Source: a virus. Taken from it: 41,321 bases of DNA. Positions within the stretch are counted from its first letter, which is position 1. Every line of letters begins with the position of its first letter. Position numbers and translations under genes: made by a program. The stretch is taken from positions 1 through 41,321 of the IMG/VR virus record IMGVR_UViG_3300044712_002646; one strand, given 5' to 3'. Positions 23,881-40,488 of the stretch are shown piece after piece. The notes under the pieces are model-generated. The model was not told where the DNA came from. It saw nothing but the letters and a program-made list of their open reading frames with translations, and searched no databases.

Positions 23881-24444
23881 TCATTCACCCCAGGGCGTCT
23901 GTTTTGCATCAGGCCTTTTCGGATTCCAATCGTCGATACAGCCAGCCAGCGAGGCTTGCAACGCCAGCAACGCATCATACCATACGGAATAAACCATTCT
24001 TCGGCATGATATTAGCTCGTCAACCGCCCCGCATTCAACGCGCCCATCGGAATGCACGGCCACACGTTCCATCTTGTAACCGACGGGATGTCGATTTCCA
24101 TCGTACAAAACAACTTCACGCCCCTTTGAATTGAGTGCCCGCCGATCCTCGAACCGAACGCCCTCGCACGCATCAGGCCGAGACCCCGCCTTCGCGTGCT
24201 CGATAACCAAACCGCTCGCGGGCTCGCCCAATCGCAGCACGTGATCATGCACAATGTCAGCGTCGGGATGGCAATCAGCCTTTCCCGACGACATGCCGCC
24301 AGCAAACATCGTCTCGACCCGCAAGCAAGAATCGACATATCCACCAGGACCAACGCGCCCCTTGCGCACCACATCGACGCGCTCGACCTGATAGGCCCAG
24401 ATCAACAACCGCTCGATGTCGATGTCTCGCTTAACCTTCGGCAT
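23881..24444 (-). CDS. Hypothetical phage protein after the replication initiator
   Basis: From the ATG at 24444 (AGGGGAA upstream) the product is 187 residues, starting PKVKRDIDIERLLIWAYQVE. It has no signal peptide or membrane segment and a C-terminal ending in KQTPWGE. I do not recognise a defined domain; the pattern IERLLIWAYQVERVD recurs in alphaproteobacterial phage proteins of unknown role that follow replication genes. It overlaps the previous gene by 14 nt. Confidence 0.75.
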   Translation of the reverse strand: MPKVKRDIDIERLLIWAYQVERVDVVRKGRVGPGGYVDSCLRVETMFAGGMSSGKADCHPDADIVHDHVLRLGEPASGLVIEHAKAGSRPDACEGVRFEDRRALNSKGREVVLYDGNRHPVGYKMERVAVHSDGRVECGAVDELISCRRMVYSVWYDALLALQASLAGCIDDWNPKRPDAKQTPWGE

Positions 24445-25522
24445 GCGATTCCCCTTTCGTGAAACCATGCTTGGACAGAATTGCCAACGGCGCCGCGCAG
24501 TCGGCGTCACCCGGAGGCGCACCCCACGGGCCCAACCACATGCCGGTGTGCCTGAAGCCACCAACCCGCTCATCCCAGAAATCGACCGGCAACGCCTGCC
24601 CAACTTCTGGCGCGTCACCCTCGGCAGCTTTGCGCATCACCGCATCGTCGATATAGCGAAACGGTCGCCCCACATCGCCCCTGGCCTTGCCCAGCACATC
24701 GCAGGCGACGGCGCCAATCTGCTCGACGGAAAGCCCAAGCCCCAGCCATCGCTGCACGTCGGCAATTCCCTCGCGGCTGGTCGAAACGAACCGGGACGAA
24801 ATCCAAAGCTCGCTGCGCCTGGCAGCACGCCAAACCGCCACCCTGGCCGCATCGACCTCATCCGGAGGGGAAAGGGTCGGGATAGGGGTTATATATAAAT
24901 TACTTTCTTCGGGGGTTGTTAGAGGGGGTGCAGGGGGAGAAAGCGGGGGTGATTGGCTCGAGGTGGCGCGAGCGTGGTTGCCACTGGCTCGAACCTGGTT
25001 GCTCGTGGTTTTTTGTGGTCCTGTTGGGTTGGCACCAACAACATCTTGTAGGTTCGCGGGCCGGATGGAACGGCTGGCAGGCATGGCAGCCCCGCTGGCA
25101 TTGGCCGGGATGGCACCGGCTGGCGGATTGGCACCGCCCGGTGATTGGCCCGGCATGGCAGCCTGGCCGAGGGTCGAGAGCAGATCGGCGCCGCCCTCGC
25201 GTTCGCGGGATGGTTGGCGCTTTGACCAACCAGGAATGACATTGTCGGAACCGATGAATCGGGCCTTGCCGCTGGCCGGATCAGGCTCGCGCATGACCAG
25301 CAGCACCGCCTCGACCTGGGCTTGCTCGCAATCCAATTGAACGGCGATTTCTTCTGGCACGGCAGCAGCCAGCGACCCTCTGGGCCGAGCGCGCGAGGCA
25401 ATATCCAACAGCAGCCAGGCCAGCGCCACGACCAGCGAGCGGGCAACGCCCGCCTTCCTGGCAATCACGCCCCACTTCGGGTCAACCGGCGCACCGTGAT
25501 AGCTGCGAAACCAATCAGCCAT
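24431..25522 (-). CDS. Probable phage replication initiator / helicase loader
   Basis: From the ATG at 25522 (363 residues), the N-terminal domain (1-95: WFRSYHGAPVDPKWGVIARK and on) resembles winged-helix DUF1376-like replication proteins. A long Pro/Ala/Ser-rich linker follows (about 110-215). The C-terminal part contains SREGIADVQRWLGLGLSVEQ and FRYIDDAVMR, similar to phage DnaA/loader-type C-termini. Directly upstream and overlapping by 8 nt is the DnaB helicase, so a loader or origin-binding role is inferred. Confidence 0.65.
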   Translation of the reverse strand: MADWFRSYHGAPVDPKWGVIARKAGVARSLVVALAWLLLDIASRARPRGSLAAAVPEEIAVQLDCEQAQVEAVLLVMREPDPASGKARFIGSDNVIPGWSKRQPSREREGGADLLSTLGQAAMPGQSPGGANPPAGAIPANASGAAMPASRSIRPANLQDVVGANPTGPQKTTSNQVRASGNHARATSSQSPPLSPPAPPLTTPEESNLYITPIPTLSPPDEVDAARVAVWRAARRSELWISSRFVSTSREGIADVQRWLGLGLSVEQIGAVACDVLGKARGDVGRPFRYIDDAVMRKAAEGDAPEVGQALPVDFWDERVGGFRHTGMWLGPWGAPPGDADCAAPLAILSKHGFTKGESHAEG

Positions 25523-26984
25523 GATCGCCGACCTCGTCGTCATGCTGGTCGGCCATATTTTCAAACTTTGACAAATCCCCTCGGAAACCCAATCTGATCG
25601 TTGCCAGCGGCCCTTCGCGGTTTTTGGCGACAATGATTTCGCCCGTATTCCAAACCTCTTCTAACCGCCTTATGAAACGGGACTTTCGATCATTGAATTT
25701 GTCGTCTGATTCGTCGGCGCGCCGCCTTGGCTCAGACCGTTCAAGGTAATATTGCTCTCGAAAAACAAACCACACCGTATCGGCGTCCTGCTCGATATTT
25801 CCCGATTCGCGCAAATCTGAAAGCTGGGGCCGCTTGTCTTCGCGGGCCTCGACGGCCCGCGACAACTGGGACAGCAGCACAATGGGACAATCCATTTCCT
25901 TAGCCAGCCGCTTCATCGCCGCCGTGATCAACCCCAGCTCTTCGTTTCTGGAATGCCCACCAGAACCGGCAACAATCTGCAAATGGTCGATCACAATCAG
26001 GCGTATTCCACCATATTTTCGGCGCAAGCGCCTGGCCCGCGCCCGCATGGCGGAAACAGTCAAGGCAGGCGTTGCATCAATGAACAAGGGAAGTGAATGC
26101 GTTGCCTGTTGCGAAGCGACCAGCCGATCAAAATCATTAAATTTGACTGATCCACGCCTGATCGCCTGATGTGGAACGCCAGAACATGTCGCCAAATAGC
26201 GCATGCCGTTTTGATCTTCTGTCATCTCAAGCGAAAAAACTAGCACAGCCCCGGCCGGCACATCGGCTGAGGCGGGCAGCCCGGCCACGTTGGCAGCGAT
26301 GTTCAAGGCCAGCGCCGACTTTCCCATGCTGGGCCGACCGGCTAGGATGTTCAGACACCCACGCTCAAGCCCACCCGTTGAACGATCCAGCGACGAAAAT
26401 CCAGTCGGATAGCCAACCAGCGTTCCAGGCGACTTACTTAAATGCTCGGCGCGCTCGACCACCCTTGCCACGATTTCGCCCATTTGAACCGGGCCGCCAT
26501 CCTGAGCGGAATCAAATGCGATCTCAGAAATACCGCTTTCCAGGGCATCTACAATCTTTGCCGCCTCCATGCCGACTTCCGGTGCCGACGCCTTGGAAAT
26601 CGCTTCTCGACAGAGCACAATCAAAACTCGCCTATCAGCGCAATCTCGAATTAACCTCCCGTAGTCGCTGGCGTTGATGATGGTGACAGCCTGCCTTGCC
26701 AGCGCCGCGATGTAGGCCGTTCCGCCGACACCATCCAAAGACCCATCCGCTTCCAAGTGCGATTTCAGCGTAACCGGATTGGCGACGCGCCCAACATCAA
26801 CCATCTGACGTATGGTAGAGAAAATATGAGCGTGAACCGGTTCCGCAAAATGCTCCGGCTGCAAAAACTCGACAACGCGATCAAGCGCTTTATTGTTGGT
26901 CAAAATAGCGCCAAGCAGTGCTTGTTCAGCCTCGACGTTGACCGGAAGGCCGCTGTTTTCAGGTGCTGGCGTTATCGCGTTCAT
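25515..26984 (-). CDS. dnaB: Replicative DNA helicase (DnaB type)
   Basis: The 489-residue protein has the DnaB N-terminal domain (EAEQALLGAILTNNKALDRV), the Walker A AGRPSMGKS (215-223), Glu253 in SLEM, Walker B LIVIDHLQI with Asp333, and the arginine-finger region. It unwinds the phage replication fork. It overlaps its neighbours at both ends, indicating a tightly coupled replication operon. Confidence 0.95.
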   Translation of the reverse strand: MNAITPAPENSGLPVNVEAEQALLGAILTNNKALDRVVEFLQPEHFAEPVHAHIFSTIRQMVDVGRVANPVTLKSHLEADGSLDGVGGTAYIAALARQAVTIINASDYGRLIRDCADRRVLIVLCREAISKASAPEVGMEAAKIVDALESGISEIAFDSAQDGGPVQMGEIVARVVERAEHLSKSPGTLVGYPTGFSSLDRSTGGLERGCLNILAGRPSMGKSALALNIAANVAGLPASADVPAGAVLVFSLEMTEDQNGMRYLATCSGVPHQAIRRGSVKFNDFDRLVASQQATHSLPLFIDATPALTVSAMRARARRLRRKYGGIRLIVIDHLQIVAGSGGHSRNEELGLITAAMKRLAKEMDCPIVLLSQLSRAVEAREDKRPQLSDLRESGNIEQDADTVWFVFREQYYLERSEPRRRADESDDKFNDRKSRFIRRLEEVWNTGEIIVAKNREGPLATIRLGFRGDLSKFENMADQHDDEVGDHG

Positions 26985-27178
26985 GCAGTGTCCTTCAGGT
27001 CAGAAACATCAATTCCTTGCGCCTCAGCCAAGGCAAAAACACCGTCGTGAAAACCGTTCGTGGCCAGCACATGAAACATCAACGACACCATCACATCGCG
27101 CCGTGTTTCACGTGGAACACGCCTTAATTGCGCAGCACTTGCAGAAAATTCTTCCGGCGTCATTCGATGCGCTTTCAT
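26981..27178 (-). CDS. Hypothetical 65-residue protein
   Basis: The small product begins KAHRMTPEEFSASAAQLRRV. It has a helical pattern and no membrane segment. Its ATG overlaps the stop of the reconstructed winged-helix gene (ATGA) and its stop overlaps dnaB in the same way, which strongly supports it as real. I do not recognise its function. Confidence 0.75.
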   Translation of the reverse strand: MKAHRMTPEEFSASAAQLRRVPRETRRDVMVSLMFHVLATNGFHDGVFALAEAQGIDVSDLKDTA

Positions 27179-27530
27179 GCCCGCTCATCCTCTACCAACC
27201 GCCAACCGACGCCATGCACGCCGACGATTTTGAATCGCGAACCGGACAACACCCCGCGAATAAGCGACAGCCAGACGTCGATGGCTTTCCATTCCTTGTC
27301 GTAGGCCAGATCGCCCCACACAGCGACGGCAAGGCATTCACGGTTGACAGTGTTGCCAGCCCCCCCCCCCTGATCAAGCGAGCCATGATGGAAGCCTGCT
27401 GGCCGGGCAATCTGATTTTTCGGTCGTCGAGCACCAGCAGCCGCTGGTCTAAAATAACGGCAATGCCGACCGGCTTATCCAACTCGCGCTTGCACAATGG
27501 GTAGCAATTCTTGGCCACTGAATCGATCAT
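27175..27530 (-). pseudogene. Winged-helix DNA-binding protein, frame split by an 11-G tract
   Basis: From the ATG at 27530 the frame reads MIDSVAKNC and on to PGQQASIMARLIRGGG, then breaks at a run of 11 G. After a shift of one base the other frame continues GNTVNRECLAVAVWGD, then IRGVL and a C-terminus with VGVHGVGWRLVEDERA, ending in a TGA that overlaps the next ATG. Together they form an OmpR-type winged helix (helix, recognition helix, C-terminal hairpin). With 12 or 9 G the protein would be 118 or 117 residues. Either the tract is a sequencing/assembly error, or slippage switches the gene on and off. Confidence 0.7.
27360..27370. repeat. Homopolymer of 11 C (11 G on the coding strand)
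   Basis: The tract interrupts the winged-helix coding sequence exactly where the reading frame must change. Homopolymers of this length are prone to slippage in replication, transcription and sequencing. Confidence 0.95.
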
Positions 27531-28162
27531 GCCGCCGCCTCGCGGTAATCACCAGCACGCTCAAACGCCTTTCGACAAGGCGCAATCCAATCAAACGTCG
27601 TAATCCCCGCACCCGGCTTCTCCCACACGACCCAGCAATAAGCCGTTGCGCTCGACGCCTTCTCATCAACACGTCCCTCGACCATCGGAACGCGCTCGGC
27701 ATACTGAAGAATCAGGCTCGGTCGATTGACTTTGAAAATATCCCCATATCTCGCGCAGCCCTCAAGCCACGCTGAACGCACTAAAACAGCCACCCCGTCT
27801 CTGGCTATTTCCAGCCCTCGCGAAACAAATTGCTCGGCCAATTTGAACGGTGGGTTTGTGATGATCCAATCGACCGACCATTCGACAGGCGTTGGAAACA
27901 AAAAATCATGGACAAGATGACCCCATCCATAATCTTGGCAATCAGACGCAATGACGCCGGGCGAAAAATATTCCTCAAGTGGTCGAGCCATATACCCCCC
28001 CCCGCATGCAGGCTCCCAACAGGTTTTATCAAAGAACCTGTCACGCCCACCAAGCCGCTCCAAAAACGCCCGCGTCGCCCAAGGCGGCGTTGGAAAATAA
28101 TCGAGTGCATCCCGTGAGAGCTTTCGATTCTGCATCACGGCGGTGGATCTATTCGCAGTCAC
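27527..28162 (-). CDS. Adenine-specific DNA methyltransferase-like protein
   Basis: The product (211 residues from the GTG at 28162) has the SAM-binding motif EPACGGGYMA and the catalytic NPPF motif of amino-methyltransferases (after DWIITNPPFKLAEQF). It also has an opening RDALDYFPTPPWATRAFLE common to phage N6-adenine methyltransferases. It could protect phage DNA from host restriction. The GTG start overlaps the upstream stop codon (GTGA) and has AAAGGTG upstream; an ATG at 28135 is an alternative. The stop overlaps the winged-helix gene. Confidence 0.88.
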   Translation of the reverse strand: MTANRSTAVMQNRKLSRDALDYFPTPPWATRAFLERLGGRDRFFDKTCWEPACGGGYMARPLEEYFSPGVIASDCQDYGWGHLVHDFLFPTPVEWSVDWIITNPPFKLAEQFVSRGLEIARDGVAVLVRSAWLEGCARYGDIFKVNRPSLILQYAERVPMVEGRVDEKASSATAYCWVVWEKPGAGITTFDWIAPCRKAFERAGDYREAAA

Positions 28163-28563
28163 GCCGCCACCTTTTCCCACGGGCCCGCGATGATGGGGAA
28201 GCCAAGTCCCCGCAGCACGACATTAGCCGCCCTGGCCACCATTGCCCAATCGGCGGGCCTGCCATCCAGGGCGTAACCATGCTGATTATCAAAACGCCGC
28301 TGCGCCCGGCCCGCCAACGCGGTCATGGCGCGGCTTTCATGCGCAGCCTGCCAGCTTTCCTCAAGATCGCTTCGCCCAGCACCCAAAATCACATCCAGCA
28401 TGATCAGCAGATCGCGCCCGGTGCGCCCATCCATGCGGCGCAATATTTCCTTGGGCGACAGCATTTGCGGCGAGCGCCACAAGCGGCGCATCCTGCGCCA
28501 TTCGTCAGGCGTCGGCGGATTGATGTAAAGCGTCACCAGCGGCTTTGGAAGAATGCTTGTCAT
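28159..28563 (-). CDS. Hypothetical early phage protein
   Basis: The 134-residue protein contains LYINPPTPDEWRRMRRLWRS and a basic helical middle. There is no membrane segment. The stop overlaps the methyltransferase start, so the two are co-translated. I do not recognise a defined family; DNA-related activity is possible from the basic WRRMRRLWRS segment. Confidence 0.75.
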   Translation of the reverse strand: MTSILPKPLVTLYINPPTPDEWRRMRRLWRSPQMLSPKEILRRMDGRTGRDLLIMLDVILGAGRSDLEESWQAAHESRAMTALAGRAQRRFDNQHGYALDGRPADWAMVARAANVVLRGLGFPIIAGPWEKVAA

Positions 28564-28587
28564 TCCTGGGTCGCCTCCAAAACGTCA

Positions 28588-28686
28588 TCAGTCGAGCCGC
28601 ACAGGAAACAAGCCAGGCGGTGCAGCAGAAACAGAATCACACCCCGTCAGCGCAAAGCACACCGCGATCATCAAGACATGTTCCAT
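28588..28686 (-). CDS. Very small lipoprotein (32 residues)
   Basis: This short frame encodes MEHVLMIAVCFALTGC and then 16 more residues (ending VRLD). The lipobox LTGC with Cys16 predicts signal peptidase II cleavage, leaving a 17-residue lipid-anchored peptide. AGGGGG lies 4 nt before the ATG, a strong ribosome site. It fills the gap between two early genes in the same direction. A role in the envelope (for example superinfection exclusion) is only a guess. Confidence 0.6.
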   Translation of the reverse strand: MEHVLMIAVCFALTGCDSVSAAPPGLFPVRLD

Positions 28687-28716
28687 GCAGCCCCCTAAAA
28701 AAATGGCGACGACGAT

Positions 28717-28971
28717 TCAGTCGCCCGAAACGCCGTCGCCAGTTGCGCGCCCTTGGGAGGGAGAGCCCGGATAATCCGCCGGGCGCGGCATTCTTGCGAT
28801 CAAGCGCCGCGAGGCGGCGATCAGATCCTCGGCCAACAGCATCATGCGCTCAGGCCCCATTTCCTCGGCATGCACGCGCACCCCATCGGCAAAGCAGACA
28901 AGGCTGGGACAACCCACGCCAAGGTCATGCACAACGTACAGACACTTACCGGCAGGAACATGGTCATCCAT
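28717..28971 (-). CDS. Hypothetical 84-residue protein
   Basis: From the ATG at 28971 the product reads MDDHVPAGKCLYVVHDLGVG and on, with a helical middle (RMMLLAEDLIAASRRLIARM) and a Gly/Ser-rich end. The ATG overlaps the last codons of the upstream gene. A longer upstream frame exists but is antisense-like in composition, and the overlap start fits the operon pattern better. No recognised domain. Confidence 0.65.
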   Translation of the reverse strand: MDDHVPAGKCLYVVHDLGVGCPSLVCFADGVRVHAEEMGPERMMLLAEDLIAASRRLIARMPRPADYPGSPSQGRATGDGVSGD

Positions 28972-29470
28972 AGCGCGCCACCCCGCCAACCGTGCGAGAT
29001 TCCGGGCGCGGCGGCATGGCGCCGCCCACTTCGCGCAACGCCCTGGGATCATCTTCGAAACAGCGCCCCGCAGGCCATGCGATATCCATGGCGTCAAAGC
29101 CACTTTCCTCGTCATCACCGTCGATTTCGTCGCTGACCTGAAATTGCCTGCGGAATTGATAGATTGCCGAGCGCACGGCGCGGGCGTTCAAATATCCGAA
29201 ATCATGCGCCAGCGTGACCAGATCTTCGCCATCATCAAATCGGCGCAGCATTTCGGTGCGGCCCAGATCGGTCAAGCAGTTCTTGTCAAAATAGGGCGAT
29301 GTGGGTGCCGGATCGGCAGGCGGTTTGGGGGCTGGCATGGGGCGCAGAACAGTGCGCACCACCGATTCAGTCAAACGCAGGCGGCCTGCGATTTCAGGCA
29401 CGCACTTGCCCTCGGCATGCAGGCGCTTGATAATTGTATCGCGCTTTTGTTTCCAGCTTTCTTTAATCAT
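28964..29470 (-). CDS. HTH-containing regulatory protein
   Basis: The 168-residue protein begins with a likely HTH: WKQKRDTIIKRLHAEGKCVP followed by EIAGRLRLTESVVRTVLR. A Pro-rich linker and a second helical domain (LTDLGRTEMLRRFDDGEDLV, then ARAVRSAIYQFRRQF) follow. Both parts look like DNA-binding modules. It overlaps its neighbours at both ends. It may be a phage transcription regulator of early genes; the target is unknown. Confidence 0.7.
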   Translation of the reverse strand: MIKESWKQKRDTIIKRLHAEGKCVPEIAGRLRLTESVVRTVLRPMPAPKPPADPAPTSPYFDKNCLTDLGRTEMLRRFDDGEDLVTLAHDFGYLNARAVRSAIYQFRRQFQVSDEIDGDDEESGFDAMDIAWPAGRCFEDDPRALREVGGAMPPRPESRTVGGVARYG

Positions 29471-30063
29471 GCCGACCTCTCGTTAACCCGATGAATTCTG
29501 GCGATGCGCGGCACGCGCACCAGGCGCGCCCAATCATCGTCGCCGCTGTCAAAGCTGGCCGCCAGGCCGCCCAGGGCGACAACGCAAATCAGGGCGAGCG
29601 CCCCGGCAACCCGGCGCGTTCTTCCTGGGAGGCGGGTAGCTGCGAGCGCGTCATCCACGCCCTCGCCCTGGTCAGGTGCCACTGGCCCAAATGGGCGTGC
29701 AGCCAGGCCAGAATGTGCCGCGACTTTTCTTTCAGCTTTTTCACGGATCAGATCCCTTTTGATGGCCCCGGCTTCTGCTTCCAGCCGTTCCAGGCGGCGC
29801 TCCAAACTGCGCTCGCTTTCGGCCAAAGCTGGCGCGAAAACGAATTCCAAAAACTCGACGCCGCACCATTCGACCAACGCCACCAGATGGCGACCGCATG
29901 GCCAGTTGCCCTGGCGGATCGATCGTGCCGTGCGCAGGTCGATGCCGCCCAGCTTGCGAGCGACGGTCTTTTCGGAATGCGGCGCCAGCCATTCGCGCAG
30001 CCGCTCGCCCACCGGATGGTGGGGGCCGACGCTGGCGTGCAAAAGGCTGGCATTCAGCGACAT
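29467..30063 (-). CDS. HTH, coiled-coil and membrane-tail protein
   Basis: The 198-residue product has an HTH-like N-terminus (EWLAPHSEKTVARKLGGIDL, then RTARSIRQGNWPCGRHLVA). A coiled coil follows (about 83-112: ERSLERRLERLEAEAGAIKR), then one hydrophobic segment (about 153-170: VAGALALICVVALGGLAA). A membrane-tethered DNA-binding protein is a possible reading. GGGGG precedes the ATG. Confidence 0.7.
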   Translation of the reverse strand: MSLNASLLHASVGPHHPVGERLREWLAPHSEKTVARKLGGIDLRTARSIRQGNWPCGRHLVALVEWCGVEFLEFVFAPALAESERSLERRLERLEAEAGAIKRDLIREKAERKVAAHSGLAARPFGPVAPDQGEGVDDALAATRLPGRTRRVAGALALICVVALGGLAASFDSGDDDWARLVRVPRIARIHRVNERSA

Positions 30064-30098
30064 GGATTTGCCCCCGTCGCCGCCGCATGATTGGCAAC

Positions 30099-30344
30099 AT
30101 GAAAAACGAACCCACGCCCGAACGAAAGACCCTGGCCAGCCGCGCGCAGACCGCGCTTGGCAATCTCCTGACCGCGCTGGAAGCGTCGGCGCTCGAGACC
30201 GGCGGGCAGGTAAATCACCAAGCGCTGGCGCAGGCGAAGACCGAACGGGCGACGCTTCGCAAGCTGCTGAACGGCAAGGGCAAGGCTATGCCGCATCAGG
30301 CACCCCCTGGGTCTCGCCCGCTGGCGGGGGATTCTCGGCCATGA
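30099..30344 (+). CDS. Possible opposite-strand ORF in the early region
   Basis: This 81-residue frame lies in a 222-nt gap between minus-strand genes. Its product (MKNEPTPERKTLASRAQTAL, then EASALETGGQVNHQALAQAK and on) has normal, helix-rich composition, unlike antisense frames. It lacks a clear ribosome site and its last 59 nt overlap the Cro-like gene in antisense. It may be real or a chance frame; a second in-frame ATG lies at 30087. Confidence 0.35.
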   Translation: MKNEPTPERKTLASRAQTALGNLLTALEASALETGGQVNHQALAQAKTERATLRKLLNGKGKAMPHQAPPGSRPLAGDSRP

Positions 30345-30510
30345 AACGGCGAACACGATCAACCGTCGCCAGGGTTACGTCTCGACCATCGCGCAGCCGA
30401 AACACAAAGTTCGGATTTCCGCAGGCCTGGCGGCCAAAAACAGTTGCCGTCATGCTGGACTGGACCAGATACGTTTCGATGTCCGAAAGGAACTGAGATT
30501 GCGTTGTCAT
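30286..30510 (-). CDS. Cro-like small DNA-binding protein
   Basis: The 74-residue protein reads FLSDIETYLVQSSMTATVFG, RQACGNPNFVFRLRDGRDV, then TLATVDRVRRFMAEN. The pattern FG-x(4)-GNPNFV-x-xLR-x-GR recurs in small alphaproteobacterial HTH proteins. It is the first gene of the early operon. Its ATG lies only 10 nt after the proposed -10 box, so the transcript is almost leaderless. A Cro-type role at the lysogeny switch is inferred from position. Confidence 0.75.
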   Translation of the reverse strand: MTTQSQFLSDIETYLVQSSMTATVFGRQACGNPNFVFRLRDGRDVTLATVDRVRRFMAENPPPAGETQGVPDAA

Positions 30511-30519
30511 GACGACAGA

Positions 30520-30565
30520 GTAATAGCCAATCGGCTATCGTGTCAATAGCCAATGATATATTGGC
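30520..30565 (-). promoter_or_regulatory. Early promoter with clustered operator half-sites
   Basis: On the minus strand, TTGACA (30546-30541) and TATTAC (30525-30520, spacer 15; a TTACTC at spacer 17 is an alternative) form the promoter for the early operon. Half-sites GGCTAT/ATAGCC occur three times across it (GGCTAT, ATAGCC, GGCTAT). A further pair GCCAAT-GATAT-ATTGGC (30549-30565) lies towards the divergent repressor gene. The same 34-nt block recurs at 32499-32532. Confidence 0.75.
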
Positions 30566-30595
30566 ACAATTCACATCGAAATATGAAAATATGCC

Positions 30596-31078
30596 ATGGA
30601 AAACAAAAAACTTAGTGCCGACCGCCAACGCCTTACCGACCTCATGGCCGAACGAGGCACTGACCCCGCCAACACATCGCGCGCCATTGGGCGCTCGCAT
30701 TCATATCTTTGGAAATTTCTTACGCAACAAACACCCAAGCGCCTTTCCGAAGAAGTTAGAGAATTACTAGGCCGACACTTCCACGTTGACCCGGACATGT
30801 TTCGCCCCGGCCCCTACCACCCCCGGCCACAGGCCGCAGCACATGCCCCCGAGCCACAACCGCAACCCCCACAATTCACCGCTGACGATCTGCTTGAGAA
30901 CGCGCTTGATCTTGTAGAGCGGGCGATTCAACGCCACCACACCCCCATGCCGCCATCCATGATCGCCTATCTGGTCAAGGGCATCTGCAACCTGGCGATC
31001 AGTGGAAATCTGGAAAGTGAGGAAACGCAAACCGGCGCACATTTAAATAAATTTCCGACAACATCCCGATCAAAATAG
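30596..31078 (+). CDS. CI-like prophage repressor candidate (XRE HTH)
   Basis: The 160-residue protein has an N-terminal HTH (RLTDLMAERGTDPANTSRAI, then GRSHSYLWKFL), a Pro/Gln-rich linker (about 75-100) and a helical C-terminal part (FTADDLLENALDLVERAIQR). It is divergent from the Cro-like gene and separated from it by the operator cluster, the standard layout of a lysogeny switch. No S24 peptidase domain is seen, so induction would not use self-cleavage of the LexA type. Confidence 0.7.
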   Translation: MENKKLSADRQRLTDLMAERGTDPANTSRAIGRSHSYLWKFLTQQTPKRLSEEVRELLGRHFHVDPDMFRPGPYHPRPQAAAHAPEPQPQPPQFTADDLLENALDLVERAIQRHHTPMPPSMIAYLVKGICNLAISGNLESEETQTGAHLNKFPTTSRSK

Positions 31079-31268
31079 TGCAAAAGCGCAACTCGAAAGA
31101 TTCGCCGCCTGCGAATGATCAGCTAACAGAGTCATTTTTATTGTTTTTTATGAAACAACATTGACAGAAGTTCATTGATAACCGAATGATTGTATGAACG
31201 TCCATGACAAAACAAACAATGGCAGGCCTGATCGCTTGCAACACTCTTTCCCGCGACAAGGCTTAACA

Positions 31269-31487
31269 ATGATTGATGAACGAAAAATTTGGAAAAGCGT
31301 TTCCCGCCGCTTTGGCTCCAACGACAACAGCAAGGCGCCAGGGCTTTGTCTGCTGCGTACCACAGCGGATTTCGATTGCCCGCATTTGGCGCAAGCCAGC
31401 CAGAATCTGGGGCTTAGCGACCGCGCCTTGGCTGCGCCCGTGATTGATCGTGATGTGCTTGCAAACCGCAAAAATCCTCGCTCTTAG
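31269..31487 (+). CDS. Doubtful small ORF before the nuclease
   Basis: A 72-residue frame (MIDERKIWKSVSRRFGSNDN and on) begins after AAGG and overlaps the nuclease start by about 35 nt. I do not recognise it. The interval 31079-31452 otherwise holds only a TTGACA (31161-31166) without a good -10 partner, and a short 6-bp inverted repeat after the repressor gene (ATTCGC/GCGAAT, 31100-31116). Confidence 0.25.
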   Translation: MIDERKIWKSVSRRFGSNDNSKAPGLCLLRTTADFDCPHLAQASQNLGLSDRALAAPVIDRDVLANRKNPRS

Positions 31488-31947
31488 CTGGCTTGTTTTG
31501 TCACTCACGCCCGCGCCTGCGCAGGCCGGGGAAATCTTGGGTCGCGCACGGGTGATCGATGGCGATACGCTGGACATCAAGGGCCAACGCATCCGCCTTG
31601 AAGGCATCGACGCGCCGGAATTGCACCAGACATGCAGCGACAAAGGGCGCGTCTGGGCTTGCGGTTTTGTCTCGGCCAAGCATCTGCGCCGCATGGTTAA
31701 GGGAAAGACCGTGGCCTGTATCGCCCATGCGCAGGATCGCTATGGCCGCTGGCTGGCCACCTGCACCGTTGATGGCATTGACATCAGCCAGGCAATGGTG
31801 GCCAATGGCCTTGCTCTGGCCTATCGAAAATATTCAGATCAATATGTTGACGAAGAAGAATCGGCAAAGAAAGCCGGGATCGGCATCTGGAATAGCGAAT
31901 TTGAAAGGCCCGAAGATTGGCGGCACGCCGAAAAACAGGCGCGCTAG
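31453..31947 (+). CDS. Secreted thermonuclease-family nuclease (SNase-like)
   Basis: The 164-residue product has a signal peptide (hydrophobic ILALSWLVLSLTPAPAQA, cleavage after AQA) followed by an SNase fold: ARVIDGDTLDIKG, RIRLEGIDAPEL, and DRYGRWLATC. The catalytic Arg and Glu of RLEGIDAPE and the Arg of DRYGR are present. It would hydrolyse nucleic acids in the periplasm or outside. As a prophage cargo gene it may protect against incoming DNA or recycle nucleotides. Confidence 0.88.
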   Translation: MCLQTAKILALSWLVLSLTPAPAQAGEILGRARVIDGDTLDIKGQRIRLEGIDAPELHQTCSDKGRVWACGFVSAKHLRRMVKGKTVACIAHAQDRYGRWLATCTVDGIDISQAMVANGLALAYRKYSDQYVDEEESAKKAGIGIWNSEFERPEDWRHAEKQAR

Positions 31948-32423
31948 AATCCATCCCAAACCGTAACTAACTCGCCAGCAGTTTCTGTATTCAGCACAAA
32001 TTTATAGACCAGCCTTGTGTCGATATCCGACGTTCCTTTCGGGCCGCATGCAACCTTAAACACGTTACCCATGGGCGAAAGCCCCTTGCGACTGACGTAA
32101 TTCACCTCGGGGCACACATAGCCAAAGCGGTGGATGGCGTCGCGCAACTCCCGCTTTAGCTTCGGCGTCAAATCAACCCGGTTCGACGGTGCCTGATTGC
32201 TCTTGGTTACCGGCTTTTCAGGCAACGGAGCGGGAGATTGGGTAGGCGCGGCAGAATCGCTTGCGCCGCACGCGCGCAGCGATAAAAGGGCAATTCCAAA
32301 AATTAAACACCCGCCGAAAAACTGCGCGATGACGCCAAAGCGCTGCCCACCACAATGCGGGCACTTATTCGCCGTTTCAGCAAAATCCTTTCCACAATGC
32401 TTGCACGGCTTCAGATTTGACAT
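31944..32423 (-). CDS. Zinc-ribbon membrane protein
   Basis: From the ATG at 32423 (AGGGGG upstream) the 159-residue product has an N-terminal zinc ribbon (CKHCGKDF, CPHCGG), a membrane segment (about 32-52) and a Ser/Pro linker. An extracytoplasmic C-terminal domain (LTPKLKRELRDAIHRFGYVC and on) follows. It converges on the nuclease with a 4-nt overlap of the ends and points away from the DGR unit. Unknown function; may act at the envelope of the lysogen. Confidence 0.75.
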   Translation of the reverse strand: MSNLKPCKHCGKDFAETANKCPHCGGQRFGVIAQFFGGCLIFGIALLSLRACGASDSAAPTQSPAPLPEKPVTKSNQAPSNRVDLTPKLKRELRDAIHRFGYVCPEVNYVSRKGLSPMGNVFKVACGPKGTSDIDTRLVYKFVLNTETAGELVTVWDGF

Positions 32424-32498
32424 CAACACCCCCTTGGATTGCGAAACCAAACACGTTCACAACATTAGCTAAAAACAAACTACGGCGGAAATAACTTA

Positions 32499-32532
32499 TT
32501 GGCTATTGACACGATAGCCTTTTGGCTATTAT
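32499..32532 (+). promoter_or_regulatory. Promoter-operator of the DGR unit, copy of the early promoter
   Basis: TTGACA (32506-32511) and TATTAT (32527-32532, spacer 15) lie in a block that matches the minus strand of 30521-30554 at 32 of 34 positions. The block includes GGCTATTGACACGATAGCC and TTGGCTATTA. The half-sites GGCTAT, ATAGCC, GGCTAT are all kept. This places the DGR targets and probably all downstream genes under the same regulator as replication. Confidence 0.75.
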
Positions 32533-32652: not shown

Positions 32653-33117
32653 ATGAACCAGACCGCCACCGCCCCCATTTCCACCGCCGATCTGCCCGAC
32701 CTCGGCCAGCCCTTCCAGGGCGGCATTCTGGCTGCCGTCGGCTACCGCCTCGACGGCACGAAATACGCCATCGCTACCGCCAAGAAAGACGACGACGCCA
32801 AAATGACTTGGGACGAGGCCATGGCCTTCTGTGCCTCGCTGGGCGAGGGCTGGTCGCTGCCCACATTGGAAAACGGCGCACTGCTGCGCGCCAACTGCAT
32901 GCCCGCGACTTATGTCGATTTTCCGGCGCAAACGCAGATTGAAGCCTTCAAGGAAGGCGGCCCGCAAGCCTTCGAAACCGACGAATGGTATTGGCTGCAA
33001 GAACAGGCCAGCGCCCACGACGCCTGGTGCCAGAACTTCTACTACGGCAATCAGTACTACCTCAACAAGTACGGTCGCTGCCGTGTGAGGGCTGTCCGCC
33101 AAATCGACCTCATTTAA
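32653..33117 (+). CDS. DGR target protein 1 (C-type-lectin-like, DUF1566/Lcl-like)
   Basis: The 154-residue protein opens with DLGQPFQGG and DGTKYAIATA, has GEGWSLPTLENGALLRAN in the middle, and ends in a VR-encoded segment (ASAHDAWCQNFYYGNQYYLN, then KYGRCRVRAVR). The LP-T-E-L and RCRVRAVR features match the DUF1566/Lcl C-type-lectin-like fold, the usual scaffold of DGR targets. There is no signal peptide. It is the first gene of the plus-strand unit. Confidence 0.9.
   Translation: MNQTATAPISTADLPDLGQPFQGGILAAVGYRLDGTKYAIATAKKDDDAKMTWDEAMAFCASLGEGWSLPTLENGALLRANCMPATYVDFPAQTQIEAFKEGGPQAFETDEWYWLQEQASAHDAWCQNFYYGNQYYLNKYGRCRVRAVRQIDLI
33006..33099 (+). repeat. Variable repeat VR1
   Basis: This 94-nt copy aligns to the template repeat 36633-36726 without gaps. 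It differs at 10 positions, all adenines in the template (A to C, G or T), all in AAY codons. The last 25 nt, through CTGTCCGC, are identical to the template. Confidence 0.96.
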
Positions 33118-33131
33118 CCATTCACCTATTT

Positions 33132-33152
33132 CCCGCGCGCTTGGCGCGCGGG
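33132..33152 (+). other. Post-VR1 hairpin (retrohoming target element)
   Basis: CCCGCGCGC and GCGCGCGGG form a 9-bp stem with loop TTG, 32 nt after VR1. It is preceded by the conserved block TTTAACCATTCACCTATTT. No T-run follows, so it is not a terminator. Confidence 0.8.
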
Positions 33153-33382: not shown

Positions 33383-33750
33383 ACCTATCAAAACACCCGA
33401 CCGATCTTGCCGGCGCGTTCAACGCAATTCAGGCCGAAATATCCAGGCTGGCCGAACAGGCCGTCGATGAACATCAGCGCCTAAAGCTCGGGCGCCAGCA
33501 AGCAACCTATGCCGGAATTCTAGCCGCACGATCCGGCATCGATATTCCGATGCCACCGCCATTCAGCGACTATCCCGCGCTGATTGATGCTTGGGGAAGC
33601 GGCATTGAAAAAGGCCTATCGGCCACCATTCCAGAAATCCGCCAATCGATCAATGCCCGGCTTGTGGTCAAGCGCCATTTACTCCAGCGCCTCGCCAGAA
33701 CCTACGCCGATCATGTTCACGAACACCTTGAAAAGGACAACGCCGCATGA
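33379..33750 (+). CDS. Hypothetical helical protein
   Basis: The 123-residue protein (LAGAFNAIQAEISRLAEQAV and on) appears all-helical with no membrane segment. It overlaps both neighbours by 4 nt (ATGA), so it is translated together with the GapR-like protein. No family recognised. Confidence 0.7.
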   Translation: MNLSKHPTDLAGAFNAIQAEISRLAEQAVDEHQRLKLGRQQATYAGILAARSGIDIPMPPPFSDYPALIDAWGSGIEKGLSATIPEIRQSINARLVVKRHLLQRLARTYADHVHEHLEKDNAA

Positions 33751-34082
33751 GCGACGATAAAAACCACGGCCAGCCCGGCCATAATTCAGGCATCACGGGC
33801 GAGCGCCTGAAAAGCTTTATCGAGCGCGTCGAGCGCCTTGAGGAAGAGAAGGCGGCCCTGGCCGCCGACATCAAGGACGTTTATGCCGAGGCCAAATCGG
33901 CAGGCTTCGACGTCAAAATCATGCGCCAGGTTGTGCGCATTCGCAAGCAAGACCCGCAGGACAGACGCGAGCAGGAAAAACTGCTTGAACTCTACATGTC
34001 GGCATTGGGCATGTTGGCCGACACGCCGTTGGGCGAAAGCGCGCTTGAACGGGCAGGCTTGAAGAAAGGCGACAGCGAATGA
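33747..34082 (+). CDS. GapR-like DNA-binding protein (DUF2312)
   Basis: The 111-residue protein contains the DUF2312 core: GERLKSFIERVERLEEEKAA, LAADIKDVYAEAKSAGFDVK, then IMRQVVRIRKQDPQDR. Host GapR in alphaproteobacteria binds overtwisted AT-rich DNA and supports topoisomerase action at replication and transcription. A phage copy could bind the phage DNA during replication. It sits inside the DGR unit between target 1 and target 2. Confidence 0.88.
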   Translation: MSDDKNHGQPGHNSGITGERLKSFIERVERLEEEKAALAADIKDVYAEAKSAGFDVKIMRQVVRIRKQDPQDRREQEKLLELYMSALGMLADTPLGESALERAGLKKGDSE

Positions 34083-34720
34083 CCTGGGTCGAAACCGCCA
34101 GCGGCAGACGCGTTGACCTGATGAACCCAACGCCCGAAGATATCTGCCCGCGCGACATCGCGCACCACCTGGCCATCTTGAATCGTTTTTCAGGCGCCAC
34201 GCACGCGCCGCTTTCTATCGCCCAACATTCGCTGCTTGTGCTTGAAATCGCAGAATCCACGATACGCAACATGGATTTGGAACCGTCCATTTCCACGGCG
34301 ATCCGCCGCTATGCGCTGTTACATGACGCGCATGAAGCCTACAAGGGTGATGACAGCTCGCCAAAAAAGCGTGCGCTCAGGAATTTATCTGATGGCAACA
34401 GCCCGATCAGCATGCTGGAAATAGCGCTGGATCAGGCCATCTTTTCGCGCTTCGCGCTGGCCTGGCCCACCCCAAAGGCGTGGGCCGACATTGTGAAAAA
34501 GGCCGATCTGATCGCCCTGGCCACCGAGCGGCGCGACCTAATGAACAGCAAGCAATCCTGGCCATGCCTTCGCGGCATCACCCCATGGCCGCAGATTGTG
34601 AAACCATTGCATTGGTCGGCGGCGGAAGAGGCGTTTCACGCACGCCTTCTGCAATTGATCGACGCAGCCCATGAAGTGCGCTTTCAAACCGCGCTTTCCC
34701 TAAAATCCAAAGCCGCATGA
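34079..34720 (+). CDS. HD-domain phosphohydrolase (YfbR/5'-nucleotidase-like)
   Basis: The 213-residue protein has the HD metal site: His50 in IAQHS, His82-Asp83 in LLHDAHE, and Asp143 in KKADLIALATE. The FSGATHAPLSIAQHS opening is typical of phage HD proteins related to deoxynucleotidases. It may adjust the nucleotide pool during phage replication. It overlaps both neighbours. Confidence 0.85.
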   Translation: MTWVETASGRRVDLMNPTPEDICPRDIAHHLAILNRFSGATHAPLSIAQHSLLVLEIAESTIRNMDLEPSISTAIRRYALLHDAHEAYKGDDSSPKKRALRNLSDGNSPISMLEIALDQAIFSRFALAWPTPKAWADIVKKADLIALATERRDLMNSKQSWPCLRGITPWPQIVKPLHWSAAEEAFHARLLQLIDAAHEVRFQTALSLKSKAA

Positions 34721-34731
34721 AGGAAAAAACA

Positions 34732-35409
34732 ATGACCAAAGCCAAACCGAAGACCAGTGCGAAGAAGCCTGCCGCCAAGAAGGCAGCAACGGCCAAGAAA
34801 CCGGTGGCGCGCAAGCCTGCAAAAAACGCCCGCACAGCGGCGAAGCCTCGCCCGCTCGCCTATGCCCGCATGAAGGCAGAGAAATGCCCCACCGAATTGG
34901 GGACGTTGTTTCAGGGTGGGTTCTACATGGGCCGACAGATGGGCCCGGACGGCAACACCTACGCATTGTTCACCGCGCCGAAGGCGCTGGGCGAGGGCGT
35001 CTTCCAGTGGAAGAAATCTAATACCCGCACCGAAGGGGCCTGGGATCTCTTTGACGGGTTGCGGAATACGGAAGCGCTGAACAACGCCGACCATCCGGCG
35101 GCGCAGTTTTGCCGGTCGTTGGACATCGGCGGCAAGCGCGACTGGCATCTACCCAGCCTGGAAGACATGCAGTTGCTGCGCCGCAATTTCATGCCGCGCC
35201 ACGATTCTAACTGGAACCCCGGCCAGACCAAGATCGAAGAATTTAAGGCAGGCGGACCGGAGGCTTTCGAGGCTGACTGGCATTGGACCAGCACCCAGGC
35301 CAGCGCCAGCAGCGCCTGGTGCCAGGGCTTCTACCTCGGCCTTCAGTACTACATCTACAAGGGCTATCGCTGCCGTGTGAGGGCTGTCCGCAAAATCATC
35401 CTAATTTAA
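34732..35409 (+). CDS. DGR target protein 2, with a Lys/Ala/Pro-rich basic tail
   Basis: From the ATG at 34732 (AAGGA 7 nt upstream) the product is 225 residues. The first 44 are a histone-H1-like repeat of KPAAKKAATAKKPVARKP type. The DUF1566/Lcl-like domain follows (LGTLFQGG, RDWHLPSLEDMQLLR, HWTSTQASASSAWCQGFYLG), ending in the VR segment and RCRVRAVRKIILI. No signal peptide. The tail resembles nucleic-acid-binding tails and is unlike known phage adhesins. An ATG at 34717 overlaps the previous stop. Confidence 0.88.
   Translation: MTKAKPKTSAKKPAAKKAATAKKPVARKPAKNARTAAKPRPLAYARMKAEKCPTELGTLFQGGFYMGRQMGPDGNTYALFTAPKALGEGVFQWKKSNTRTEGAWDLFDGLRNTEALNNADHPAAQFCRSLDIGGKRDWHLPSLEDMQLLRRNFMPRHDSNWNPGQTKIEEFKAGGPEAFEADWHWTSTQASASSAWCQGFYLGLQYYIYKGYRCRVRAVRKIILI
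35298..35391 (+). repeat. Variable repeat VR2
   Basis: This 94-nt copy aligns to the template without gaps and differs at 15 positions. All are template adenines in AAY codons; all other positions are identical. Confidence 0.96.
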
Positions 35410-35423
35410 CCATTCACTTATTT

Positions 35424-35444
35424 GCCGACCGCTGAGCGGTCGGC
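35424..35444 (+). other. Post-VR2 hairpin (retrohoming target element)
   Basis: GCCGACCGC and GCGGTCGGC form a 9-bp stem with loop TGA, 32 nt after VR2, preceded by the block TTTAACCATTCACTTATTT. Compared with the other two hairpins the stem bases differ but the pairing is kept, which is evidence for structural conservation. Confidence 0.85.
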
Positions 35445-35475: not shown

Positions 35476-36033
35476 ATGAACCAAGTTGCCTCCACCGAAA
35501 CGCCGCTTCCCGAGATCGGCGCGCCCTTCCAGGGCGGATTCTTTGCCGGAATCATGTTCCAGCAGGACGGATCGAAATATGCCTTGATCGTCGCCCCCAA
35601 GGCCGAGGGCGAAGCGCCCGAGAAATTACCCTTCACGAACGGCGTTAGCAGTGAAACCGCTGCCCGCTCGTTGTGGGACGGTCAGGCCAATAATCAGTCC
35701 CTGCTGGACGGCGACCACCCGGCGGCGCAGTTCTGCGCCAACCTCAAGATCAGCGGGTTCGAGGATTGGTATCTGCCCAGCAAGGACGAACTCTATCTGA
35801 TCGCCAGCCGCTTCCTGCCCGCCGACGACGGTGACAACTGGAACCCGGCCATCACCGCTTTCGACGCTTTTAAGCAAGGCGGACCGGAGGCGTTCGGGCG
35901 CGCCTTATATTGGTCCAGCACTGAGGCCAGCGCCTTCACCGCCTGGTGCCAGGGCTTCAGCGGCGGCGGTCAGCTCTACTACCTCAAGGACTTTCGCTGC
36001 CGTGTGAGGGCTGTCCGCAAATATCCTCTTTAA
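35476..36033 (+). CDS. DGR target protein 3 (C-type-lectin-like, DUF1566/Lcl-like)
   Basis: From the ATG at 35476 (AAGGAAT upstream) the product is 185 residues. It has IGAPFQGGFFAGIMFQQDG, FEDWYLPSKDELYLIASRFL, and LYWSSTEASAFTAWCQGF, a clear DUF1566-type YWSS pattern, followed by the VR segment and RCRVRAVRKYPL. No signal peptide. It lies 66 nt after target 2 and 60 nt before avd. Confidence 0.92.
   Translation: MNQVASTETPLPEIGAPFQGGFFAGIMFQQDGSKYALIVAPKAEGEAPEKLPFTNGVSSETAARSLWDGQANNQSLLDGDHPAAQFCANLKISGFEDWYLPSKDELYLIASRFLPADDGDNWNPAITAFDAFKQGGPEAFGRALYWSSTEASAFTAWCQGFSGGGQLYYLKDFRCRVRAVRKYPL
35925..36018 (+). repeat. Variable repeat VR3
   Basis: This 94-nt copy aligns to the template without gaps and differs at 18 positions. 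All are template adenines in AAY codons. Identity extends 4 nt beyond the repeat (AAAT), further than in VR1 and VR2. Confidence 0.96.
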
Positions 36034-36046
36034 CCATTCACCTATT

Positions 36047-36069
36047 CCCCGCGCGCTCAGCGCGCGGGG
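36047..36069 (+). other. Post-VR3 hairpin (retrohoming target element)
   Basis: CCCCGCGCGC and GCGCGCGGGG form a 10-bp stem with loop TCA, 28 nt after VR3, preceded by TTTAACCATTCACCTATT. No such hairpin follows the template repeat. Confidence 0.8.
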
Positions 36070-36093: not shown

Positions 36094-36447
36094 ATGACGC
36101 TCGCGACCGACCTGCCGATCTACAAGCCGACCTACGATTTGATTCTGTTGGTGATGAATCTCACCCGGAACTATCCCAAGTCGTTTCGGCATGGCCTGGC
36201 GCGGGACATCGATTTGGGGGCGCAGCAACTGGCCACGATGATTTTTCAGGCCAACTGCACCCACGACAAGGTTCCGGTTATCGAAGGCCTGCGGAAGAAG
36301 CTTTCCGTTCTCCGCCTGCAACTAAGGCTTTCGAAGGATCTGCGTCTGATTTCTGCCGGACAATTTGGGGCCACGGTGGAGCTAACCACCGCCATCGGAA
36401 AGCAGGCGACCGGTTGGCTAAAATCGGCGAAACAGAGGGGCGCCTGA
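36094..36447 (+). CDS. avd: Avd-like DGR accessory protein
   Basis: The 117-residue protein is all-helical and basic: PIYKPTYDLILLVMNLTRNY, PKSFRHGLARDIDL, then VIEGLRKKLSVLRLQLRLSK. These match the four-helix-bundle Avd proteins, which bind the reverse transcriptase and template RNA in DGRs. It precedes the template repeat and reverse transcriptase, the normal order. The ATG is preceded by GGAAA. Confidence 0.88.
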   Translation: MTLATDLPIYKPTYDLILLVMNLTRNYPKSFRHGLARDIDLGAQQLATMIFQANCTHDKVPVIEGLRKKLSVLRLQLRLSKDLRLISAGQFGATVELTTAIGKQATGWLKSAKQRGA

Positions 36448-36632
36448 TGCGGTACGGTTACGGCCATGCCGCCTGCGCGCATGATTTGGTCGGGGTAGCG
36501 GCGGCACTGCCTGCCGTCGCTCCAGGTGCCAACGGGATACGGCGATCTGCTCCGCGCGCGTCCCGGCACGGCTTGGCGGGTGTCGATGTACCAAACAATC
36601 GCCCGCCCGGCTTGTACACCCCCGACATGACA
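36448..36632 (+). ncRNA. Non-coding leader of the DGR template RNA
   Basis: No frame of coding character is seen between avd and the template repeat on either strand. The 185-nt interval is GC-rich and has a possible stem GGGTGT (36578-36583)/ACACCC (36616-36621) just before the repeat. It probably forms the 5' part of the template RNA. Its boundaries are unknown. Confidence 0.4.
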
Positions 36633-36726
36633 GGCCAGCGCCAACAACGCCTGGTGCCAGAACTTCAACAACGGCAATCAGAACTACAACAACAAGAACA
36701 ATCGCTGCCGTGTGAGGGCTGTCCGC
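36633..36726 (+). repeat. DGR template repeat (TR)
   Basis: This 94-nt repeat is the presumed invariant donor: read in the target frame it contains 11 AAC/AAT codons, which the VRs replace. Its last 25 nt (from TCGCTGCC to CTGTCCGC) have one adenine and are identical in all copies, as expected of the IMH region where mutagenic homing begins. The RT start codon follows 2 nt after it. Confidence 0.95.
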
Positions 36727-36728
36727 AA

Positions 36729-37829
36729 ATGAAAACCCATCGCTCAGAAATCACCGTGGCCCAACTTTTTGAAGCCTATTTCGATTGCCGTCGCCACAAG
36801 CGCAACAGCGCCTCGGCCCTGGCATTCGAGGTCGATCTTGAACGCAACCTGATGGACCTGCACGAGGAATTGATTTCCGGCACCTGGATGCCCAGGCCAG
36901 CCACCACCTTCGTCATCACGCGCCCGAAACCGCGCGAGGTTTGGGCCGCCGATTTTCGCGACCGCATCGTGCATCATCTGGTTTACGCGGCCATCGCACC
37001 CAGGATCGAGGCCGCCTTCATCGCCGATTCCTGCGCCTGCATCAAGGGGCGCGGCACGCTGTACGGCGCCAATCGGTTGGCCGGTCATTTGCGCAGCGCC
37101 ACCCAGAATTGGAGCAAGCCGGTTTTTTACCTGAAAGCCGACATCGCCAATTTCTTTGTCTCGATCCGCCGCGCCGATCTGTTCGTCATGCTGGCGGCCA
37201 AGCTGCGCGATAAAACGATGCCGGATCTGTGCCGCAAGCTGGTTTTCCAGGACGTGAAACGCGATTGCATCGTCAAGGGCAGTCAGAGATCATTCTTGCA
37301 GGTGCCGCGCCACAAAAGCCTGTTCCATGCGCCCGAGGGCAATGGCCTGCCGATCGGCAATCTGTCCAGCCAATTCTTCGCCAACGTCTATCTGGACGGA
37401 CTGGATCAGTTCATCAAGCGCCAGTTGGGCTTTCACCATTACGTGCGCTATGTCGACGACATGGTGCTGATCGACGCCGATCCCCAGCGCCTGTTGGCCG
37501 CTGCCAACGCCATTCGCGACCACCTTACCAGCATCGGATTGAAACTGGCCGAACACAAAACATTCGTCGCCCCCGCCGACAAGGGCGTCGATTTTGTTGG
37601 CCATGTTATCCGGCCATTTCGCAGTCAGGCCAGAGCGCGCACCCACCGCGCCGCCCTGGCCAGGATTGCCGCCACGGTCCAGGCAGACCTGCCCACCACT
37701 GTCACGTCGTATCTGGGCCTGTTCAAGCACAGCGGCAGCCGGGCGCAGCGCGAACAGATCGCCCGCGCCGCCATGCAGCGCGGCCTTTATGTCGAAACCG
37801 ATTTATCGAAAGCGAGGAAAAGAAGATGA
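36729..37829 (+). CDS. DGR reverse transcriptase
   Basis: The 366-residue product has the RT palm motifs: Asp138 in LKADIANFF, the DGR-type motif LPIGNLSSQFF (207-217; GxxxSQ replaces the QG of retroviral enzymes), and the catalytic YVDD (241-244). An open frame extends far upstream through target 3, but the true start is the ATG at 36729. The best ribosome site (GAGGG, 36714-36718) lies inside the template repeat. It would copy the template RNA and misread adenines. Confidence 0.97.
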   Translation: MKTHRSEITVAQLFEAYFDCRRHKRNSASALAFEVDLERNLMDLHEELISGTWMPRPATTFVITRPKPREVWAADFRDRIVHHLVYAAIAPRIEAAFIADSCACIKGRGTLYGANRLAGHLRSATQNWSKPVFYLKADIANFFVSIRRADLFVMLAAKLRDKTMPDLCRKLVFQDVKRDCIVKGSQRSFLQVPRHKSLFHAPEGNGLPIGNLSSQFFANVYLDGLDQFIKRQLGFHHYVRYVDDMVLIDADPQRLLAAANAIRDHLTSIGLKLAEHKTFVAPADKGVDFVGHVIRPFRSQARARTHRAALARIAATVQADLPTTVTSYLGLFKHSGSRAQREQIARAAMQRGLYVETDLSKARKRR

Positions 37830-40186: not shown

Positions 40187-40488
40187 ACGCCGCGCCGCCG
40201 CTTTCCGTCGAACAACTGGCCCAGCGATGGGAATGCAGCAGCCAGCATATCCGGGACATGATACGAAATCAGGAGTTGCAGGCCTTTCGGATCGGTCGTT
40301 TAATCCGAGTTCCAGTCGCCGAGGTCGAAAGGATCGAGCAATGCACGTCGTTAATTATCGAGGAAAATGGTGCGCCAGAGCCACCATTGACGGAAAGCGG
40401 CGGCGCTGGAGCCTTGGCAACCTCGATGCCACGAAAGAAAATCGTGGGGCTGCCGAGCGGGCGCTGCGTGACCTTGAACGCTCCCTAG
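40183..40488 (+). CDS. xis: Excisionase-like HTH protein
   Basis: The 101-residue protein has a MerR/HTH_17-type domain: SVEQLAQRWECSSQHIRDMI, then LQAFRIGRLIRVPVAEVERI. Small proteins of this type next to a tyrosine integrase are usually excisionases (recombination directionality factors). The second half (residues about 53-101) lies in a different frame inside the integrase gene, an overlap of 148 nt. The ATG overlaps the previous stop. Confidence 0.75.
   Translation: MNAAPPLSVEQLAQRWECSSQHIRDMIRNQELQAFRIGRLIRVPVAEVERIEQCTSLIIEENGAPEPPLTESGGAGALATSMPRKKIVGLPSGRCVTLNAP

Follow-up and report, generated by a model that had tools for sequence, protein, structure and literature searches.

A probable lambda-like operator pair whose second member heads a DGR operon

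The window that we analysed, all 41,321 nt (positions 1 to 41,321) of IMG/VR virus record IMGVR_UViG_3300044712_002646, contains two inverted copies of a 34-nt block that very probably form the O_R/O_L pair of a lambda-like immunity region, with the second operator heading the DGR operon. What is established at the level of sequence comprises the two sites themselves, their positions, their co-variation among related phages, and the co-directional gene order. A shared promoter-operator block had been proposed earlier from the letters of the window (the original prediction), and it is supported by the features described here (Table 1), including the recurrence of the same layout with different operators in many related DGR phages.

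Table 1. Coordinates of the operator blocks, flanking genes and DGR components in the window
Feature	Position	Strand	Remarks
Leftward replication operon	23881-30510	-	gene map; run of mostly minus-strand genes
Replication-initiation-like protein	24431-25522	-	leftward operon
DnaB-like helicase	25515-26984	-	leftward operon
Methyltransferase-like protein	27527-28180	-	leftward operon
Small cro-position protein, first gene of leftward operon	30286-30510	-	start codon 10 nt from copy 1
Copy 1, O_R/P_R-like	30521-30554	-	ATTGGCTATTGACACGATAGCCGATTGGCTATTA
Copy 1 weak -10-like TATTAC	30525-30520	-	15-nt spacer to TTGACA
Copy 1 dyad ATAGCC-N4-GGCTAT	30523-30538	-	read from sequence
Copy 1 -35-like TTGACA	30546-30541	-	read from sequence
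Repressor candidate	30596-31078	+	160 aa; N-terminal HTH; no S24 peptidase domain
Staphylococcal-nuclease-like protein	31453-31947	+	rex-like position between operators
Cysteine-motif protein	31944-32423	-	between operators, divergent from DGR operon; probable membrane segment (read by eye)
Copy 2, O_L/P_L-like	32498-32531	+	ATTGGCTATTGACACGATAGCCTTTTGGCTATTA
Copy 2 -35-like TTGACA	32506-32511	+	read from sequence
Copy 2 dyad ATAGCC-N4-GGCTAT	32514-32529	+	read from sequence
Copy 2 TATTAT	32527-32532	+	15-nt spacer to TTGACA
DGR target 1, Lcl_C-like	32653-33117	+	first gene after copy 2; below Pfam cut-off
Variable repeat (VR) of target 1	33003-33102	+	11 differences from TR
GapR-like DNA-binding protein	33747-34082	+	early operon
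YfbR-like HD nucleotidase	34079-34720	+	below Pfam cut-off
DGR target 2 (Lcl_C)	34732-35409	+	
Variable repeat of target 2	35295-35394	+	16 differences from TR
DGR target 3 (Lcl_C)	35476-36033	+	
Variable repeat of target 3	35924-36022	+	18 differences from TR
Avd accessory protein	36094-36447	+	Pfam bAvd, 8.5e-13
Template repeat (TR)	36630-36729	+	
DGR reverse transcriptase (RT)	36729-37829	+	RVT_1, 8.8e-16
Tyrosine integrase	40341-41321	+	end of rightward operon; runs off record

The two copies align at 32 of 34 positions, as had been predicted, and both mismatches fall in the 4-nt centre of the ATAGCC-N4-GGCTAT dyad, at the positions that an operator made of two half-sites should leave free to vary. 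In each copy TTGACA is flanked by half-sites, with three TTGGCTAT/ATAGCC half-sites in all, again as proposed; the minus-strand coordinates of the original prediction (30521-30554) are also correct, but the plus-strand copy, placed by it at 32499-32532, lies one base away at 32498-32531. Outside the block the flanks of the two copies do not align. Within the window the exact dyad is present only at these two places, as is TTGACA-N(0-30)-GGCTAT, for which 0.07 occurrences are expected by chance, and there is no third block closer than 12 mismatches, the nearest places overlapping copies 1 and 2 themselves. Both copies contain TTGACA, and the best -10 candidates (TATTAC and TATTAT) are weak and 15 nt from the -35 box; as this spacing is short for sigma-70, the promoters are putative. 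The start codon of the cro-position gene is about 10 nt from the block both in the window (30508-30525) and in the related phage L003 (4999-5048), and the P_R transcript may thus be nearly leaderless.

Copy 1 lies in the gap between the cro-position gene and the divergent repressor candidate, facing the replication operon, and copy 2 precedes DGR target 1 and all of the genes through to the integrase; the gene map bears out the original prediction on both points. The cro-position gene has no Pfam match and has a weak homolog at the same place in the related phage L016, and it is a putative Cro by its position and this homolog. Rightward from copy 2 the order is target 1, the GapR-like gene, the HD nucleotidase, targets 2 and 3, Avd, TR, RT, a DUF5131 gene and the integrase, with all genes on the plus strand except for one 43-aa minus-strand call that is probably spurious. 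The window has a serine-recombinase-like ORF (read by eye) at its left end (1-1605) and the tyrosine integrase at its right end, and ORFs related to the former come after the DGR in four other loci (L013, L014, L095 and L097).

The repressor candidate named in the original prediction (30596-31078) is supported, in that its ~70 N-terminal residues align with the S24-family DNA-binding domain. In 317 genomes of the order of Paramagnetospirillum caucaseum (G001), a whole-genome search gave 12 matches; the ones amenable to realignment share 31-46% identity with the N-terminal ~60-90 residues of the candidate, and the regulators are mostly 227-237 aa long. One that was checked has an S24 peptidase domain, and pairwise BLASTP against it gave an E-value of 5e-14 with 28/61 residues identical (46%) at the N-terminus. 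Only the whole-genome search yielded these homologs, neither degenerate patterns in viral_contigs nor tblastn in phages giving any, and the best Pfam match of the candidate (HTH_31, E=0.0023) is below cut-off. From these alignments the candidate has the DNA-binding domain of Rhodospirillales S24 (CI/LexA-like) repressors without the protease. The S24 domain is present in the repressors of most relatives examined (L003, L097, L098, L099, L082, L039, L020 and L073) and was found neither in the window's candidate nor in the short repressor of L016. RecA-triggered (SOS) induction is therefore not predicted here, although because many CI-type repressors lack the S24 autocleavage domain, its absence bears on the route of induction and not on the architecture. 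The repressor homologs have TTTCCTA elements at or near their own starts, and the TTnnCTA common to these and to the window's half-site is suggestive without being proof. An AlphaFold2 single-sequence model of the candidate was discarded (mean pLDDT 52), and PDB sequence searches with the candidate and with target 3 gave nothing useful.

The window's DGR is genuine: every one of the TR/VR differences (11, 16 and 18 in the three repeats) is at a template adenine, and both Avd and RT are present. Hairpins with perfect 9-10-bp stems lie 3' of each VR (33132-33152, 35424-35444 and 36047-36069), with loops of 3 nt (TTG, TGA and TCA) rather than the GRNA tetraloop in the hairpins of other phage DGRs (PMC3240598). 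None of the targets matches any tail family. In four phages (window, 32653; L016, 4794; L082, 4332; L175, 5761) the P_L-like operon opens with a DGR target, which is set apart from the other DGR genes.

Exact searches for the block in viral_contigs and in the 317 genomes found no relatives with the same sequence, and the few matches with 2-3 mismatches are no commoner in these collections than with a reversed-pattern control, so that the block sequence is not conserved between phages and only the layout is. We took relatives of the RT from viral and genome collections and defined as close those in which the RT is at least 60% identical and the immunity region lies in the fetched stretch. The close relatives have an inverted pair at the same two places, in the cro/repressor gap and before the DGR operon, with a sequence that differs from phage to phage and is unrelated to the window's block. 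The pair in L003 and L015 is identical at 34 of 38 nt (5011-5048 and 6533-6570; ATACGAAGCATATCGCGCGAGGTCAATATGATTTGTAT), and other pairs are found in L097 (3349-3388 and 4558-4597; GAAAGAGCAATATCGCTCTTTTGTCAAGAGCGATGTCGCT) and L099 (3702-3723 and 6159-6180; AAATCACATCATGATGGGATAT). L015 comes from the culturable lysogen Paramagnetospirillum caucaseum SO-1, and the operon is complete in the stretch fetched from it. L016, L031, L096 and L098 have pairs at the same two places with shorter shared sequences, and in L012 the shared sequence is only 11 nt. Many of the relatives' blocks include TTGAC-type -35 boxes. The arrangement thus persists from phage to phage, and the two copies vary in step with each other, which is what a single repressor reading both sites would produce.

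When each operator region was scored against all partner regions in 11 phages, it ranked its own partner first in 10, the window's own pair scoring 29.5 against a cross-phage mean of 8.05 (sd 1.3, maximum 13.5), with some selection bias because the O_R and O_L stretches were picked by hand from gene maps, some after repeats had been seen. The exception is Cruim01, which has the gene order of the window and no detectable shared operator. The isolated Burkholderia cenocepacia phage Magia has five AACCAAGGTTAT-type sites (three plus two, versus 0.3 expected), located only in the cro/cI gap and before the DGR operon, and the first gene behind the latter sites is a DGR target. Across 22 mapped relatives the O_R-O_L separations range from 0.75 to 3.1 kb, and there is no minus-strand gene between O_L and RT in 18.

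In a screen independent of the gene maps, which covered 125 non-redundant loci, 10 had a low-GC inverted pair on the upstream side of the DGR, and neither the 675 kb of flank downstream nor five shuffles had any; the initial low-GC filter passed over L016 and L031, whose pairs were found by reading the gaps. An automated test starting from S24 repressors covered 41 loci, of which 11 scored above and 28 below the 99th percentile of the cross-phage control, the latter partly because of mis-called starts. All of the detected S24 repressors (47/47) are upstream of the RT and point in its direction. In L030, L052, L112 and L134 the stretch upstream of the RT has low-GC direct repeats (20-30 nt). 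The locus L017 (1-9112) is of a different phage type, apparently Mu-like, with DDE-transposase-like and ATPase genes (read by eye), and its DGR follows these early genes in the same orientation.

By the logic of lambda, the DGR would be silent in the lysogen and switched on at induction, and would also fire on infection. In the lysogen the 30596-31078 protein would bind both blocks and keep both promoters shut; on loss of repression, or upon infection before repressor has accumulated, the two early operons would fire together. The DGR RNA would then start at copy 2, and RT, Avd, template RNA and target proteins would be made in an early wave along with replication and recombination functions. 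Judging from the sequences of more than 20 related viruses, in which the layout is the same and each has its own signals, the mutation machinery is probably off in the dormant virus and on early. The nearest experimental precedent is in another phage, hankyphage, in which CRISPRi silencing of a CI-like repressor is reported to increase virion output and the expression of most phage genes, and the virions so obtained showed DGR mutagenesis; uninduced lysogen cultures had DGR activity too, and they also released virions spontaneously (PMC12135933).

The O_R/O_L pair could be real and yet exert weak control, if TR, Avd and RT are expressed mainly from an internal and possibly constitutive promoter of their own. 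The distance from copy 2 to TR and RT (~4.1 kb) favours such a promoter, as does the DGR activity of uninduced hankyphage lysogens, though with the spontaneous virion release reported for those cultures (PMC12135933). A consensus scan found no further sigma-70-like promoter on the plus strand between 32536 and 40414, although alphaproteobacterial promoters can depart from the Escherichia coli consensus; the co-directional run of genes from O_L to RT is moreover kept in most relatives, and the first gene after O_L is a DGR target in the window, L016, L082 and Magia. We consider expression chiefly from an internal promoter to be unlikely.

Two other explanations deny that the blocks are operators. 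Inverted repeats around a 2-kb segment with variable cargo recall the terminal repeats or inversion sites of a mobile or invertible element, but there is no transposase or invertase between the blocks, the corresponding two places in relatives have sequences unrelated to these, in many cases with the half-site present two or three times per location (three plus two in Magia, two plus one in L098), and the blocks contain -35 boxes and differ only at the dyad centre, which makes a mobile segment highly improbable. We find it just as hard to credit copy 2 as a terminator-like hairpin (GGCTATTGACACGATAGCC with TTTT behind it) and copy 1 as a chance or passive relative: the consensus scan does mark 32501-32519 as terminator-like, but in copy 1 the same stem is followed by GATT and not by a run of T, a -35 box is covered by the stem, and the relatives' blocks lack a common hairpin-plus-T pattern.

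The reading as paired early operators offers a sequence-level answer, for a large group of phages, to how DGRs are switched, in which the lysis-lysogeny repressor would act through a second operator, and DGR regulation is useful to study here because it can be tested by deleting one short site. On this reading the DGR targets would belong to the early programme instead of the late tail one, which argues for functions other than the switching of tail tropism, the BPP-1 paradigm. A broader and more tentative proposal, which we regard as possible though doubtful, is that in this wide temperate group the DGR is an early-gene module, with targets that act within the new host or at its surface, for example against defences or rival phages, rather than as receptor-binding proteins of the virion, and with hypermutation confined by the repressor to the first minutes of infection or induction. 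If so, the targets would be made with replication and recombination proteins and before tails.

Hankyphage is comparable in that silencing of its CI-like repressor, RepC_HP, gave virions with DGR mutagenesis, but it is Mu-like and transposable, its DGR target is a tail fibre, and the available text of the report describes no shared operator beside the DGR (PMC12135933). Magia (MT701587) has the same order of annotated genes, from cro and a C2-like repressor through the DGR targets (genes 57 and 47), RecT, Avd and RT to the integrase; its operator sequence and repressor differ from those of the window, and operators are not mentioned in the available part of its announcement (PMC7883833). BPP-1 (NC_005357) shares with the window TR, Avd, RT, A-specific VR/TR differences, a hairpin after each VR, and a Cro/cI pair. 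However, its mtd, avd, TR and brt are on the tail-gene strand just beyond the tail genes and opposite to cI and the early genes, whereas the window has its DGR in an early operon, next to the repressor, with targets that match no tail family. At a loose threshold BPP-1 has 42 repeat pairs (best score 16), and the best twelve, almost all inside annotated genes, include no O_R/O_L-like pair. The annotated second variable region of BPP-1 (VR2; L176, 33229-33558; gene bbp36) belongs to the operon that follows cI, with the RT among the late genes.

In the open-access literature, which was the scope of the search, we came across no account of a DGR placed in a repressor-controlled P_L-type operon; the circuit type, paired early operators, is known, and a DGR in a P_L operon appears to be undescribed. 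In lambda, two near-identical inverted operators ~2 kb apart surround cI, with the cro/replication operon on one side and another early operon ending in the integrase on the other, and small accessory genes (rex) between cI and O_L. The window matches lambda in its inverted operators, divergent repressor, cro/replication side, integrase-ending operon, ~2 kb separation and small accessory genes between repressor and O_L, and differs in that its repressor is short and without an S24 protease and its P_L-like operon holds the DGR together with its targets.
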